Shown here in pieces: positions 44,257-50,493 of a stretch of 64,000 nucleotides of DNA. Every line of letters starts with the position of its first letter. Positions within the stretch are counted from its first letter, which is position 1. Where the stretch lies: assembly GCF_003667705.1 (NCBI RefSeq), contig NZ_CP033019.1:2480001-2544000 (forward strand), in the 5' to 3' direction. This DNA comes from Janthinobacterium agaricidamnosum. Its GTDB lineage: Bacteria; Pseudomonadota; Gammaproteobacteria; Burkholderiales; Burkholderiaceae_D. The notes beneath the pieces are model-generated. The model did no database searches and was not told where the DNA came from. It saw only the letters and a list, made by a program, of their open reading frames with translations. Both the position numbers and the translations under genes were made by a program.

Positions 44257-46077
44257 ATGACGACATCGCATGACACCGCCGCCAGCCAACCACCCACGCA
44301 AGCATCGCTGAACTGCGGCGTTGTGGGCAATTGCGCCTTCAACGCCCTGATCGACCAGGCGGGGCAGGTCGTCTGGTCTTGCCTGCCCCGTTTCGACGGC
44401 GATCCCGTCTTCAACCGCTTGCTGGACGACACGGAAAACGGCAGCGTGTGGGCCATCGACATCGAGAACTTCGCGCGCAGCGAGCAATTCTACGAGCCGA
44501 ACACGGCCGTGCTGCGCACGCGCCTGTACGACACGCAGGGGCGCGGCGTGGAAATCACGGATTTCGCGCCCCGTTTCCTCAGCCGCGACCGCATGTTCCG
44601 CCCGCTGATGCTGATCCGCCGCGTCCGGCCGCTCGACCATGCCGTGCGCATCCGCGTCCGTCTGCGCCCCCGCTACGACTGGGGCCGGCTGGCGCCGCAG
44701 ATCACGCAGGGCAGCCACCACATCCGCTACGTGGGACCGGAACAGACCTTGCGCCTGAACACCGATGTGTCGCTCAATTATGTGCTGAGCGAAACGTATT
44801 TCGTGCTGGGCGGCACGGCCAACTTCCTGCTGGGCCCCGATGAAACCCTGGCCGGCGGCATTGACGAGACGGCGCGCATCTTCGAAAAGGAAACGATCAA
44901 CTATTGGCGCACCTACACGCGCCGCCTGGCCGTGCCGCTGGAATGGCAGGACGTGGTCATCCGCGCCGCCATCACCTTGAAACTGTCTTTATATGAGGAC
45001 ACGGGCGCCATCATCGCCGCCATGACCACCAGCATCCCCGAAGCGCCGGGCAGCAGCCGCAACTGGGATTACCGCTATTGCTGGCTGCGCGATGCCTTCT
45101 TTGTCGTGCGCGCATTGAACAGCCTGTCGGAAGTGGGCACGATGGAAGAGTATTTGCGCTGGCTGACGAATATCGTCGCCCGCTCGAAAGGCGGCCACAT
45201 CCAGCCCCTGTACGGCATCGGCCTGGAAGAGCAGCTGCCCGAATCGATACTCGACCACTTGCCCGGCTACCGGGGCAACGGCCCCGTGCGGGTGGGCAAC
45301 CAGGCGCAGGAACACTTCCAGCACGACGTCTACGGCAATATCGTGCTGGGCGCGGCGCAGGCCTTCCTCGACCACCGCCTGTTCCACCGCGCCGGCAAGG
45401 CCGAGTTTGCAGCGCTGGAAGCCGTGGGCGACCAGGCATTCAGATTGCACGCGGAACCGGACGCGGGCATGTGGGAGCTGCGTACGCGGGCCCGCGTCCA
45501 CACCTCGTCCATGCTGATGAGCTGGGCCGCCTGCGACCGCCTGGCCAAGGTCGCCCATAAACTGGGCTTGGCGGACCGCGCCGACCACTGGAACAGCCGC
45601 GCCGTGCTGATCCGAGAGCGCCTGCTGCGCGAAGCGTGGAGCGAAGAGCGCCAGGCGTTTGCGGAAAGCCTGGGCGGGCGCGACCTCGACGCCTCCGTCC
45701 TGCTGATGGCGGAAGTCAACTTCATCGACCCCATGGACCCGCGTTTCATCGCTACAGTCGACGCGCTCGAAGCATCGCTGTGCGACGGCCCCTACATGCG
45801 CCGCTATGAAGCCCCCGACGACTTCGGCAAACCCGAGACCGCCTTCAACATCTGCACCTTCTGGCGCATCGACGCCCTGGCGCGCATCGGCAGGAAAGAC
45901 GAGGCGCGCAAGATCTTCGAAACCATGCTGCTGGCGCGCAACCACCTGGGCCTGCTGTCGGAAGACACGCACCCGGTGACGGGAGAGATGTGGGGGAACT
46001 TTCCGCAGACGTATTCGATGGTGGGGCTGATCAACTGTGCCGTGCGGTTGTCGGCGCCTTGGGATAGTGCGGTTTAG
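44257..46077 (+). CDS. Glycoside hydrolase family 15 protein
   Basis: This 606-residue cytosolic enzyme has the two-part GH15 layout: an N-terminal beta-sandwich domain (about 15-220) and an (alpha/alpha)6 barrel. GH15 signatures include SRNWDYRYCWLRDAFF (about 266-281) and PLYGIGLEEQLPE; the late DLDASVLLMAEV and DTHPVTGEMWGNFPQTYS carry probable catalytic residues. Family members are glucoamylases, glucodextranases and trehalases. Its place in an otsA-otsB operon favours a trehalose-related role, for example turnover, but this is not proven. It ends with a clean intrinsic terminator. Confidence 0.9.
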   Translation: MTTSHDTAASQPPTQASLNCGVVGNCAFNALIDQAGQVVWSCLPRFDGDPVFNRLLDDTENGSVWAIDIENFARSEQFYEPNTAVLRTRLYDTQGRGVEITDFAPRFLSRDRMFRPLMLIRRVRPLDHAVRIRVRLRPRYDWGRLAPQITQGSHHIRYVGPEQTLRLNTDVSLNYVLSETYFVLGGTANFLLGPDETLAGGIDETARIFEKETINYWRTYTRRLAVPLEWQDVVIRAAITLKLSLYEDTGAIIAAMTTSIPEAPGSSRNWDYRYCWLRDAFFVVRALNSLSEVGTMEEYLRWLTNIVARSKGGHIQPLYGIGLEEQLPESILDHLPGYRGNGPVRVGNQAQEHFQHDVYGNIVLGAAQAFLDHRLFHRAGKAEFAALEAVGDQAFRLHAEPDAGMWELRTRARVHTSSMLMSWAACDRLAKVAHKLGLADRADHWNSRAVLIRERLLREAWSEERQAFAESLGGRDLDASVLLMAEVNFIDPMDPRFIATVDALEASLCDGPYMRRYEAPDDFGKPETAFNICTFWRIDALARIGRKDEARKIFETMLLARNHLGLLSEDTHPVTGEMWGNFPQTYSMVGLINCAVRLSAPWDSAV

Positions 46078-46086
46078 ACACTTCGC

Positions 46087-46108
46087 GGTGAGAAGCTTAC
46101 CTCTCACC
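46087..46108. other. Hairpin after the GH15 gene
   Basis: GGTGAGA and TCTCACC pair as 7-bp arms around an 8-nt loop, ten bases after the stop. It precedes the main terminator and may protect the message 3' end. Confidence 0.35.
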
Positions 46109-46132
46109 TGCCGAAAATGACAATTTTTTTTG

Positions 46133-46156
46133 AGGCCCGCTGAAGCGGGCTTTTTT
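46133..46156 (+). terminator. Intrinsic terminator of the trehalose operon
   Basis: GCCCGC-TGAA-GCGGGC is a perfect 6-bp GC stem with a tetraloop, followed directly by TTTTTT. It is the clearest rho-independent terminator in the window. Confidence 0.9.
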
Positions 46157-46167
46157 ATGAGCACTAA

Positions 46168-47079
46168 GGAACGGTTTAATAACTTAGCGGAAATTTAGTC
46201 GACGCAGCAGCAACGAACCCATGGCCAGGTAAATCATATTTTCCGAAACATCAAGGCGCTGCTCGTAGTCGCGCACCAAGCGCCGGTAACGCATCAGCCA
46301 TGCAAACGTTCGCTCGACCACCCAGCGCCTGGGTTGAACAGCGAAACCTTGCTGCCCTTGCAGGCGCCGCACGACTTCCACCGTGAAGTCAAGAAACGCA
46401 GCCTTGTCCATCAACTGTTTGCGGTCATATGCCGCATCCCCAAACAGATGCTTCACCCATGGCCAGCGTTTAATCAGGCCGTCGAGCACCATCTGAGCAC
46501 CAGTGGAGTCGGCAATATCGGCTGGGGTCAGGTTCATCGCCAGTAAGCGACCGTCCGTGTCGACCGCGATATGGCGTTTGCGCCCGCTGAGTTTCTTGTG
46601 GGCGTCATAGCCTCTTGTTCGTGCCCCTGGCGCTTTCACGCTCTGGCTATCGACAACACCGGCACTCGGCAGCACCTCCCGTTCATTGCACATACGATCG
46701 AGCATCAGCGCCAAGTCATGAATGGTACGAAACAGCATGCGCCGCATCAGCCGCCGAAACCAGTAATAAACCGTCTGATACGGCGGGAAATCATTTGGCA
46801 GCATGCGCCACTCGCATCCGGACCGTACCATGTAACGCAGCGCATTGATCACCGTGCGCAAATCCGTTTTGCGAGGTCTTCCCGTCTTCGCTTGCCTTGG
46901 CAGCAGCGGTGCGATCAGACGCCACTCTTCATCTTTCACATCTGTGGGATAGCCACGTTTAAGTGCCGTCCTCACCTGCTGATGCCGGCTTCGATTCTCT
47001 TGCGTCCACATCGTCAATCACTCCAAAACATCAAAGATGCTTTGACCTGAAAGTTGCTATAAAGTTTTTAAACCGTTAC
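46168..47079. mobile_element. Complete IS5-family insertion sequence (912 bp)
   Basis: The ends are matching inverted repeats (left GGAACGGTTTAATAACTT, right inverse GTAACGGTTTAAAAACTT, 16 of 18 identical). They are flanked on both sides by TAA (46165-46167 and 47080-47082), the TNA-type target duplication of several IS5 subgroups. The element holds one intact transposase gene and sits between the trehalose terminator and the A/T-rich patch. The unbroken target repeat and open frame suggest a recent insertion. Confidence 0.9.
46184..47017 (-). CDS. IS5-family transposase
   Basis: This 277-residue DDE transposase has an N-terminal DUF4096-type domain (TDVKDEEWRLIAPLLP, NALRYMVRSGCEWRMLPNDF) and a DDE catalytic domain with Asp in VVDSQSVKAPG, Asp in FGDAAYDRKQL and Glu in RRWVVERTFAWLMRYR. 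The frame is intact, which fits an active element. It fills almost the whole 912-bp IS. The stop lies 17 bases inside the left inverted repeat end. Confidence 0.95.
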   Translation of the reverse strand: MTMWTQENRSRHQQVRTALKRGYPTDVKDEEWRLIAPLLPRQAKTGRPRKTDLRTVINALRYMVRSGCEWRMLPNDFPPYQTVYYWFRRLMRRMLFRTIHDLALMLDRMCNEREVLPSAGVVDSQSVKAPGARTRGYDAHKKLSGRKRHIAVDTDGRLLAMNLTPADIADSTGAQMVLDGLIKRWPWVKHLFGDAAYDRKQLMDKAAFLDFTVEVVRRLQGQQGFAVQPRRWVVERTFAWLMRYRRLVRDYEQRLDVSENMIYLAMGSLLLRRLNFR

Positions 47080-47936
47080 TAAGAGCAGTCGATATATTGA
47101 CAATTTATTTTAAGTGATATCTATAATAACTTTTGCATGAAAGTGTACGTTAGCGTTGACGCTGCGCCGAATTCTTGGCGTCGGACTGCTCACAGCGAAT
47201 GCAGCGGTTGTCACCATCGGTCATCCTGCCGGCTTCAGTTCCGGTCGTCAATTTGCGACATGGCTCGGCTTGGTACTAAGCCAGACTGAAATTGGTGGAT
47301 ACGTTCGTTAATTTGGTTTAAGCAAACTGGGCGACGTCTATCTGTGAACATTGCTCGTTCACGGCGCTAGAGCGATCATCTCAGGCAGTGCGCACTCCCC
47401 ATGGATTATTGAACTTTTAAGTGAAGGCCGTACGGCGTTACAGGTACCGCTCTGGCGAACAAGTTGGCTCGAATAATTTTGGCAGTATTGTTCACGATAA
47501 CGTATTTGATCTCGAGTAAAGTCCACCGAACTGAAAAGTTCGGCATACGGGACAACAAGCTTTACTTCAGGAGTGCAAGCGAAAAATACATGATGGCGAA
47601 CAGAGAGTACCGTGACGAGAATAACCTGATAGGGAATTGCAGCCATTGATATTAAAAATAAGATAAGAAATTGTCGGTGAATTCTATCAGGGTCTGCAAG
47701 TGATGGACCTGCATCAACAGGCTAGATATCAGACTGTTACCTCATCTGGACTTAACGTGCGAAGCTACTTAATCTCCGTGAGTCGTCCATATAAGTTATC
47801 CATAGAGCCTGTCCAGGCTCACGTCCACACTTATCCGCCAAAAAATATGCGCTTTTAAGTGATATTTAAAGAGACTACATCCAAAAATGAAGCTATCATT
47901 TAGGATTGATCCTACTTACTAAATTCAAAGGAAAAC
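47080..47936. other. A/T-rich gap with transposon remnant
   Basis: This 857-bp stretch downstream of the IS holds no intact gene that I can support. It contains the IS110 remnant listed separately, a perfect hairpin GAGCCTG-TC-CAGGCTC (47805-47820) and two copies of TTTTAAGTGATAT (47108-47120 and 47853-47865). The promoter of the two-gene cassette should be in its last 100 bases, which are markedly A/T-rich. Confidence 0.6.
47153..47510 (+). pseudogene. IS110-family transposase remnant
   Basis: Translating from 47162 gives LRRILGVGLLTANAAVVTIG, then GFSSGRQFATWLGLVLSQTE and FGLSKLGDVYL, TLLVHGARAII. This is the Transposase_20 C-terminal domain of IS110/IS1111 elements. In-frame stops occur at 47309-47311 (TAA) and 47345-47347 (TGA). 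A frameshift brings ALANKLARIILAVLF into another frame around 47449-47490. No N-terminal catalytic half is present. It is a decayed fragment that marks this patch as a former landing site of mobile DNA. Confidence 0.85.
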
Positions 47937-48761
47937 ATGACAGTCGATCTTGATGTGGTTATAGATAGTCCCGACTATTCGGTTGAAATGAAATCTGGCC
48001 TTAAAACACTTCAGGGTTCATCGGATGCCATCAGAATAGTTGCAGAAACCGTTTTGTCGGGAAAAATCCCAGGAAGAAAGACTTTCAAAGGGAAAGTTAA
48101 AACAATCTTGAAGGCCAGCTTTAGCGGATCATATGGTCAGATTTTCACGTTAGATATTTCCGATCAGGTATTAAAAGAGAAATATGGAGAGATTGGATGG
48201 GAAGTATTTACGGAAATAATTTCTTATTTCTTAAATGATTCGGTTTATAAGGAAAATGAAATATTGAGCGCTCAAGCAAAGGAAATAATCGATAATCTGG
48301 GAGAGAAAGCAGAAGACCTTAGCAAACATCTTCGAGTTTCGGCGATGAAAAATATTCATGACACAAGTTTTAAATTTAACTATGATGTCAAAATTCGATT
48401 CAGAAAAAACAGAGATGAAAAGAAAATATTGGCAGAATTTGATAGAAGTACAGGCTTAACTTTAGCAGCGAAATTGGATCGCCAGAGCATAGATGTCTCT
48501 GTTGCAATTACAAGGTTGAATATAAATACAGGTAATGGACGTCTTCAAATTTTCGGTGAAAATGAAACTACAGCATTTGGTTTCTTGAGTGAGTATAAAG
48601 TAATAAACGCAAGGGCAAAAAGCTTGATATCGGATAATCTTTCGAAAAATAATATATTGGATGAAGAGCAACGAATTTATATAAAATTACAAGTTCGCGC
48701 TTTAAGAATTCGTGATGGAAAAGCAGTGAAGTATTTTATCTCGGGATTTTATGAGGAATAA
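47937..48761 (+). CDS. Hypothetical protein (274 aa), first gene of an A/T-rich cassette
   Basis: I do not recognise a named family. The protein is soluble-looking, with no signal peptide or membrane helix and many charged residues. The first third (DVVIDSPDYSVEMKSGLKTL..KGKVKTILKASFSGSYGQIFTL) looks beta-rich, a helical middle follows (about 80-150), and a second beta-rich part (KFNYDVKIRFRKNRDEKKIL..VSVAITRLNINTGNGRLQIF) closes it. Base composition is far more A/T-rich than the host genes. AAAGGA precedes the ATG. Its 3' end overlaps the next gene by 11 nt, so the two form a coupled pair. In context it may be the sensing or partner component of a defence module; that is inference. Confidence 0.75.
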   Translation: MTVDLDVVIDSPDYSVEMKSGLKTLQGSSDAIRIVAETVLSGKIPGRKTFKGKVKTILKASFSGSYGQIFTLDISDQVLKEKYGEIGWEVFTEIISYFLNDSVYKENEILSAQAKEIIDNLGEKAEDLSKHLRVSAMKNIHDTSFKFNYDVKIRFRKNRDEKKILAEFDRSTGLTLAAKLDRQSIDVSVAITRLNINTGNGRLQIFGENETTAFGFLSEYKVINARAKSLISDNLSKNNILDEEQRIYIKLQVRALRIRDGKAVKYFISGFYEE

Positions 48762-49491
48762 TTATCTTACTTTTCTTGGCGGGATGGCAATTACGATAAT
48801 AATCGCTTTCTATGTATTGAAATTTTTCCCAATATTTGGCTCCCAATTGTCAGAGGATACGGCGGTTTGGGGCCAGTTTGGTGACTACATAGGTGGGACA
48901 TTAAACCCAATCTTAAGTTTTTTATCCGTTGTACTCCTGATACGATCAGCCACATTGCAAAAAGAAGCAAATGCCGAGCTTAAAAAAGAACTTAAGAATA
49001 GCGAAAGAACTGAAAATTTTAGATTGTTTAATACGTTGTTTTTCAATATGATAGAATCACAAAAAAATATTTTTCGTGAATTTAAAATATATTTCTACGA
49101 AGGTCACAACATTGTGGAGAAAACAGGTGCTGCTGCTGTATTGCATATGGAAGAGGAAATAGAGAATTTGAGAGATAATGGCGTAGGCAACGAAGGTGTA
49201 GCAGATTATCTTAGTGAGTTGGATTCCGAAGATCAGATTTTTGGGGTTTTGCGTGCTTTTTACACTACCGTGAAAATAATTTGCGATAAGATTGTTGAGG
49301 AGAATGGTTTCAAAGAAGGAGAAGCAAGAGATCAAATAATAACTTTGATTAACTTTACAGATTTCTCTCAGCTTCGTTTGGTGGTGATTGGCACTCAATT
49401 TTTAAATTACAAATCTTGCGAGTATCTTAGAGGTAATAATTTATTTATATCCTCGCTCAACGAGGTTAAGCTTAGTTTGGATTTGTATTAA
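48751..49491 (+). CDS. Putative phage abortive infection-type membrane protein
   Basis: This 246-residue protein has two N-terminal transmembrane helices (about 6-26 and 49-66) separated by the signature segment WGQFGDYIGGTLNPILSFLS. A coiled-coil-like charged helix follows (KEANAELKKELKNSERTENF), then FRLFNTLFFNMIESQKNIF and an acidic C-terminal helical domain. The W-G-x-F-G-D-x-x-G-G-x-L-N-P layout is that of proteins annotated as putative phage abortive infection proteins. The family link is from memory of that motif; activity is untested. It is strongly A/T-rich, overlaps the preceding gene and is preceded by transposon remains. Likely an inner-membrane effector. Confidence 0.72.
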   Translation: MRNNYLTFLGGMAITIIIAFYVLKFFPIFGSQLSEDTAVWGQFGDYIGGTLNPILSFLSVVLLIRSATLQKEANAELKKELKNSERTENFRLFNTLFFNMIESQKNIFREFKIYFYEGHNIVEKTGAAAVLHMEEEIENLRDNGVGNEGVADYLSELDSEDQIFGVLRAFYTTVKIICDKIVEENGFKEGEARDQIITLINFTDFSQLRLVVIGTQFLNYKSCEYLRGNNLFISSLNEVKLSLDLY

Positions 49492-49569
49492 TTAGAATTG
49501 GGACACTTATTGAACTTTTTCTGATGCAATCGATTTTGCTAAACATCAAGTTTTTGCGCAAAATTCGCG

Positions 49570-50493
49570 TCATGCATCAGCGCGCTTTTCACCACGCCCA
49601 TACAACCTGCACTCCGCCGCCAGCGCCAGCAAATTGGGATCACGCTCGCGGCTGCTCTGCATCAACAGGGTGATTTGCTGGTGCGAGCCGTAGCGCGCGT
49701 CGAGGGGCAGCAGTTCGATGCGCGAGCTGAAGGCGCGCACTCTGCCTGGCAGCAGGCTGTAGCCGATGCCGCCGCTCACCAGGTTGATCAGCGAGAAGAT
49801 GTCGCCCACCCTCATGGCCGTGTCGGGCACGAAGCCGGCCAGCTCGAATGCGTGGTTGAAGCTTTGCGAGGTGACGAATCCCTCGTTGAGCGTGACGAAT
49901 TTGTCGTCGCGCAACTGTTGCAAGTCCACCGAGGCCGTTCCCGCATAGGGCGAGGCGAGCGGCGCGGCCAGGAAGATGTCGTCTTGGAACAGGGGCACGG
50001 CCACCAGGCCCGCATGCTGTTCGTCTTCCTGCACGCCGATGATGATGGCGTCCAGCCGGCCGTCGGCCAGGCTTTGCAGCAGGTCGCGGTTCGAACCCAG
50101 GGTCAGGTCGATGTCCAGGCCCGGCCGGCGCAGTTTCAGGGCGATCACCAGCTGCGGGATGCAGTGCAGGGTCAATGAATACAGCGAACCGATCTTCAGG
50201 CGCACGGGGTTGATGCCCGACATTTCGCGCACCTTGCGCACGCCTTCCTCGCATTCGGCCAGCGCGCGCCGCGCCGATTCGGCAAAGGTGTAGGCCGTAT
50301 GCAGGGGTATCAGACTGCGCCCCTCGCGCTTGAACAGTGGGCAGCGCAAGCCGTCTTCCAGCGAGTGCAGGGCGCGGTGCACGCTGACCGTGCTCTGGCC
50401 CAGCGCATCGGCCACCCGCGCCAGGTTGTTCAATTCCATGAAGCTGAGAAAAACTTCCAGCTTTTTCAGGGTAATTTCTTCGTTGATGGCCAT
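49570..50493 (-). CDS. mdcR: LysR-family regulator of malonate genes
   Basis: This 307-residue LysR regulator has an N-terminal winged HTH (KLEVFLSFMELNNLARVADA, QSTVSVHRALHSLEDGL) and an effector-binding domain (LKIGSLYSLTLHCIPQLVIA, IIIGVQEDEQHAGLVAVPLF). It is transcribed away from mdcA, the standard place for MdcR, which activates the malonate decarboxylase operon in response to malonate. A perfect palindrome in the shared promoter is its probable binding site. Length is normal. It ends 78 bp from the foreign A/T-rich cassette. Confidence 0.88.
   Translation of the reverse strand: MAINEEITLKKLEVFLSFMELNNLARVADALGQSTVSVHRALHSLEDGLRCPLFKREGRSLIPLHTAYTFAESARRALAECEEGVRKVREMSGINPVRLKIGSLYSLTLHCIPQLVIALKLRRPGLDIDLTLGSNRDLLQSLADGRLDAIIIGVQEDEQHAGLVAVPLFQDDIFLAAPLASPYAGTASVDLQQLRDDKFVTLNEGFVTSQSFNHAFELAGFVPDTAMRVGDIFSLINLVSGGIGYSLLPGRVRAFSSRIELLPLDARYGSHQQITLLMQSSRERDPNLLALAAECRLYGRGEKRADA

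Follow-up and report, generated by a model that had tools for sequence, protein, structure and literature searches.

A mobile gene pair of Janthinobacterium agaricidamnosum as a candidate two-gene anti-phage system

A 64-kb stretch of Janthinobacterium agaricidamnosum, taken from a single 6.36-Mb contig and hereafter called the window, holds two overlapping genes that we refer to as A and B. Gene A (47937..48761, forward strand) encodes a soluble protein of 274 residues and matches phrog_13337 (7.2e-42), and gene B (48751..49491, same strand) encodes a membrane protein of 246 residues that matches phrog_8999 (1.6e-35). Both reading frames are open and overlap by 11 nt (48751-48761), as an earlier note on this DNA had claimed. 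The cassette joins a soluble to a membrane partner, both from unclassified families, and we consider it somewhat better than even, at a probability of about 0.55, that the two form a mobile anti-phage system of the abortive-infection type, in which A would serve as sensor or regulator and B as membrane effector. This proposal builds on the two genes themselves, their linkage and mobility, the location of homologs in a hotspot, the homology between the B membrane module and that of putAbiC-type proteins, and the predicted folds. A literature search returned no paper recognisably concerned with the pair or naming DUF7946 or DUF7947, with the limit that the search did not cover a table of 169 hotspot systems (PMC9122126), which may list the pair untested.

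Linkage and carriers of the pair

One check proposed in the earlier note was whether the 274-residue protein is always paired with its 246-residue partner, and the distribution agrees with such pairing. In all 22 genome_contigs loci found, B lies downstream of A in the same orientation. The A-then-B order recurs in every one of the 20 IMG/VR loci where A was detected, in all 19 plasmid records (pairing being judged from match coordinates, with one record spanning only 46% of B) and in the single phage record carrying A. At most other loci, counting from the first start codon, the two genes overlap by, or are separated by, a few to about 25 nt. Searching IMG/VR from B instead recovered 66 loci, with A upstream in nine, a contig edge cutting one, and 56 without A. 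These unpaired relatives score at most 84 bits against the B profile, as against about 100 bits or more for the paired copies, the lowest-scoring of which derives from E. coli (L066). Since the paired copies score above the unpaired ones, the comparison indicates that, within a larger family of two-transmembrane (TM) proteins, the B type described here goes together with A. Four loci have a further B-like gene, in the same orientation and no more than about 5 kb from the first: L012 (11822-12340), L101 (7315-8091), L143 (9412-10110) and L146 (766-1413). A solitary B-like gene at L068 (5941-6795), in a Vibrio plasmid array with many small DUF3265 genes, bears the annotation 'putative phage abortive infection protein'.

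The two genes are not chance reading frames, as they are conserved at many loci and differ from the copy of Janthinobacterium sp. FW305-129 (L006) by few, mostly synonymous substitutions (7 synonymous and 4 non-synonymous in A, 6 and 2 in B). Occurrence is sparse: A is present in only 4 of 37 Janthinobacterium genomes, the window's own counted, and in Janthinobacterium LM6 (L022) it lies about 300 kb from the window's site, where the interval measures 204 bp. A sample of the class yielded A in 3 of 369 genomes (the own genome, one true pair and one remote relative without B), and a sample of the phylum in 2 of 398 (the own genome and one remote relative). The pair is evidently lost as well as gained, considering the broken copies of Azotobacter vinelandii CA (L014, 10001-11553), where both genes are split between frames, and Marinobacterium rhizophilum (L010, 8271-9074), with an internal stop in A.

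The pair is mobile, residing in P2-like prophages, IncX plasmids, Col plasmids and the chromosomes of many genera. Two ColRNAI plasmids, 4652 and 6126 bp long, have it alongside 3 and 5 other annotated genes, and relatives of the pair were found on an IncX plasmid, further plasmids, a Klebsiella phage and a Plesiomonas megaplasmid, in the last case adjoining phage tail genes and an AAA ATPase gene. DNA-level searches of 5426 E. coli genomes with three queries gave matches in 14, 82 and 46 of them, those of the third query including plasmids of the first. Six E. coli chromosomal contexts were opened, chosen to span the kinds of match; five place the pair between gpA (replication) and gpQ (portal) of P2-like prophages, in one case with a protein kinase gene beside it, and in the sixth it lies on an island together with IS66, DUF4365 and an HsdR-like gene. 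In IMG/VR, a convergent portal gene directly follows B in 13 of the 20 loci with A, with gpA upstream in 12 of these, probable near-duplicates by score being L079/L080, L086/L087 and L085/L088; at L069 and L074 the gpA/portal-type genes are present in a different arrangement. The gpA-gpQ interval has been described as a hotspot of anti-phage systems in P2-like prophages, occupied by old and tin in P2 (PMC9122126). The E. coli prophage pair thus shares its position with the cargo reported there (old, tin, DprA-PRTase and others), and has no evident entry among the validated systems mentioned in the section of that paper considered here. At L157 (6033-7640), the pair and a serine/threonine protein kinase gene both lie in this slot.

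The neighbourhoods of the pair match more PADLOC families than a same-genus control. At E<=1e-8, the neighbours of 21 pair loci (up to 12 genes per locus; L006 excluded as near identical to the window copy, and 3 of 226 locus-end reading frames dropped) matched 39 families in a set of 125 proteins and 15 families in a set of 98, against 4 families (three mad-type and AriA) for 137 control proteins from 20 random stretches of contigs of known length, the control being smaller per locus (up to 7 genes, 4 in one) and drawn from the same genus rather than the same host genomes. The output counts families, not proteins, and several families probably correspond to one protein, so that the enrichment is no gene count. 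Among the matches listed, which give 25 of the 39-family set by name, are PD-Lambda-5_B, MTase_II, HerA, ThsA, MzaA, RT_UG29 and LmuB.

The same data bear on a toxin-antitoxin or addiction module, in which A would be a stable neutraliser of a membrane toxin B, securing the inheritance of plasmid or prophage with defence as a secondary effect. The A-then-B order with its overlap would suit such a module, as would carriage on IncX plasmids and on the small ColRNAI plasmids with few other genes. Known antitoxins are however usually much smaller than A, and defence accounts better for the sporadic open chromosomal copies (in 4 of 37 Janthinobacterium genomes), for the cargo slot, which in P2 itself contains old and tin, and for the PADLOC-rich neighbourhoods. 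We therefore regard an addiction module as unlikely.

Families of A and B

For A, the earlier note could name no family, a statement that can now be revised. Alignment of A with eight DUF7946-DUF7947 proteins (PF25678, PF25679) gives 98.7% in hhalign over 262 columns, covering both domains, close to the full length of A and including a T-x-x-N-x-x-T-G-x-G-R stretch. On alignment grounds, A is a remote relative of these proteins, although it stays under the Pfam cut-offs: DUF7947 reaches 20.5 bits against a cut-off of 27, and DUF7946 is not listed at E<=1. Residues 178-274 of A are predicted to form a C-terminal OB fold with an invariant polar core; R193, N200, R202 and K265 are among the invariant residues of A.

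DUF7946-DUF7947 proteins often adjoin a membrane-linked gene, but the partners of the examined relatives are not B. In one case (L186, 3975-7302) the DUF7946-DUF7947 gene stands directly after a patatin/DUF3376 gene. In other Janthinobacterium genomes (L193, 636-2025; L194, 1477-2872; L195, 482-2061) the gene next to the relative encodes a protein of about 190 residues with a single TM segment. The two genes overlap in L193 and L194, and one of the three loci has a weak DUF4760 match below cut-off; this arrangement is possibly a sister two-gene system. A further relative has a gene for a three-TM protein upstream, another adjoins, by eye, Rhs-repeat-like sequence (L185, 7195-9071), and two show no evident partner, one of them lying among what by eye are phage-like genes. 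A membrane-linked neighbour is hence seen in 5 of 8 remote relatives, a lead rather than a test, as the TM counts come from crude hydropathy with no control; L190, with a DUF7946 match below cut-off, falls outside the examined relatives. Such neighbours suggest one sensor type with exchangeable effectors. More tentatively, the superfamily of A and DUF7946-DUF7947 could be a general infection-sensing module with interchangeable membrane-attacking effectors (the two-TM B, the single-TM protein, the three-TM protein and the patatin-like phospholipase), and as such an unrecognised anti-phage class, an extension that we deem possible but doubtful.

B comprises two N-terminal TM helices, a W-x-Q-x-G-D-Y-x-G-G-x-L-N-P motif (WGQFGDYIGGTLNPILSFLS, residues 40-59) and a helical soluble domain. 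In the structure model, residues 4-29 form one helix and residues 37-109 a second, long one that is hydrophobic in its first part. Invariant residues of B include W40, G48/G49, D158 and R168. By a crude hydropathy count, only 17 of 58 B homologs have exactly two segments, and the two-TM layout is accordingly based on the sequence in the window, the structure model and the alignment.

The earlier note had seen in B the layout of putative phage abortive infection proteins and proposed a search against the corresponding Pfam family. The membrane part of this likeness is upheld. When B was aligned with 47 B-like relatives outside the pair, 25 of which bear putAbiC (PF16872) at E<=0.1, hhalign gave 99.9% over 163 columns; the set includes 45 of the 56 distinct unpaired B-like reading frames, short ones and near-duplicates being omitted. 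Shared with putAbiC proteins, many of which are on viral contigs, are the two-TM module, a W-G-Q-F-G-D-Y-x-G-G-x-L-N-P motif and the following helix, and judged from this alignment the two-helix membrane module of B is homologous to theirs. The family assignment itself does not hold, as a putAbiC match is absent from all 33 B homologs, not only at the 22-bit cut-off but also at E<=0.1. In one related protein viewed in detail, the putAbiC model falls on C-terminal residues 194-263, where B differs, the C-terminal region of B being outside the profile match. The 56 lower-scoring B-like viral loci are without A, whereas B is paired with it.

As a small membrane protein encoded by prophages and phage-like contigs, B might alternatively act in superinfection exclusion, blocking phage DNA entry from the inner membrane with A as modulator while the cell survives. 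Yet A is conserved as strictly as B, with an invariant polar core that would be needless for a plain entry blocker, and the patatin-like phospholipase gene preceding one remote A relative is of a membrane-damaging type. Exclusion therefore appears quite unlikely to us.

Insertion in the Janthinobacterium chromosome

The cassette is part of a foreign insertion in the Janthinobacterium chromosome (46077..49570), bounded by a gene ending at 46077 and a LysR-type gene, named by eye, with its stop at 49570. Besides FW305-129, 23 Janthinobacterium genomes were aligned at the site, the left gene to 46076-46084 and the right flank from 49570-49595, and both flanks were available in 15. The interval between them is 2-208 bp in 11 of these genomes, 512 bp in 3 and 1447 bp in 1, compared with about 3.5 kb in the window. 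The A/T-richness relative to the host that had been pointed out earlier is borne out by a guanine-plus-cytosine (GC) fraction of 0.349 for A and B together, against 0.656 for the window without 46077-49570; more than 2.5 kb from the pair, the window minimum is 0.523 (1.55-kb stretches in 50-bp steps).

Both mobile elements described next to the pair in the earlier note are real. The element of the insertion sequence (IS) family IS5 spans, with its ACTAAG repeats, 46163..47083, and its transposase (46184-47017) matches DDE_Tnp_1 and DUF4096. In FW305-129 this cassette occupies the corresponding site, but the IS5 element is absent and a single ACTAAG stands where the window has two copies (46163 and 47078); the IS5 insertion is thus recent, occurred after arrival of the cassette, and is not the carrier of the pair. 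The decayed IS110-type transposase lies upstream of the pair (47159..47383, forward strand), with a Transposase_20 match and two internal stops, and an IS110-type gene has five open copies elsewhere in the same genome.

Weighing defence and the proposed mechanism

Beyond the missing putAbiC match and the form of the PADLOC control, several results weigh against a role in defence. Neither A nor B matches any family of PADLOC-DB 2.0.0 at E<=1, and mad-type and AriA matches are found among the neighbours of the pair as well as in the control. Fold matches to the A model were modest, with none at E<=0.001 in Foldseek, and for B they did not exceed what helical models can yield by chance. Nor does the window copy belong to a P2 prophage, as a tblastn search with nine P2-type proteins gave no match in the window at E<=1e-5; unlike the P2 hotspot cargo, this copy occupies a chromosome without P2 genes nearby. 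Any of these nine proteins was found in the examined flanks of only 3 of 22 genome_contigs loci (L014, L021 and L023), making the P2 slot one home among several, and prophage contexts in IMG/VR are expected, since this collection holds viral contigs by design. Finally, the defence reading is drawn from sequence and models.

Some of these points would equally favour non-defence cargo, that is, a phage or plasmid maintenance or stress function with no effect on other phages. The P2 hotspot also holds non-defence genes, including plasmid partitioning genes and a toxin gene (PMC9122126), and most genome_contigs loci have no P2-type gene near. However, carriers as varied as P2-like prophages, IncX and Col plasmids and the chromosomes of many genera, in all of which the pair is found again, share little need beyond conflict with other elements, which speaks against such cargo and renders it, in our estimate, improbable.

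Returning to abortive infection as the preferred reading, A, with its OB-fold domain, would detect a signal of infection. The most likely candidate is a nucleic acid or a nucleotide-like ligand, which may be bound through the invariant R-x-N-x-x-T-G-N-G-R, N-L-x-x-N and K residues. A would then control B through direct contact. B is envisaged as residing in the inner membrane, with a two-helix hairpin and a helical domain that lies in the cytoplasm; released or activated by A, it would damage the membrane and stop the infected cell. Ligand sensing, contact between A and B, membrane topology and damage, and phage protection are the elements of this scheme that we infer. Soluble and transmembrane partners encoded together have precedents, as in systems of a HAD-like hydrolase with a TM protein or of TIR with TM proteins, and the TM proteins of known systems are believed to be cell-suicide effectors (PMC9122126). 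A and B differ from these systems in matching no PADLOC model at the threshold given above.

Two proteins of unknown function, whose genes occur in many environmental bacteria as well as in E. coli P2-like prophages and on IncX and Col plasmids, become through this analysis a specific defence candidate, one that is simple to test, as versions exist in P2-like prophages of E. coli. The pair further hints at the partner with which the two-TM 'phage abortive infection' module may be connected in this branch of the family, and the uncharacterised DUF7946-DUF7947 family is suggested as a class of sensors with exchangeable membrane effectors.
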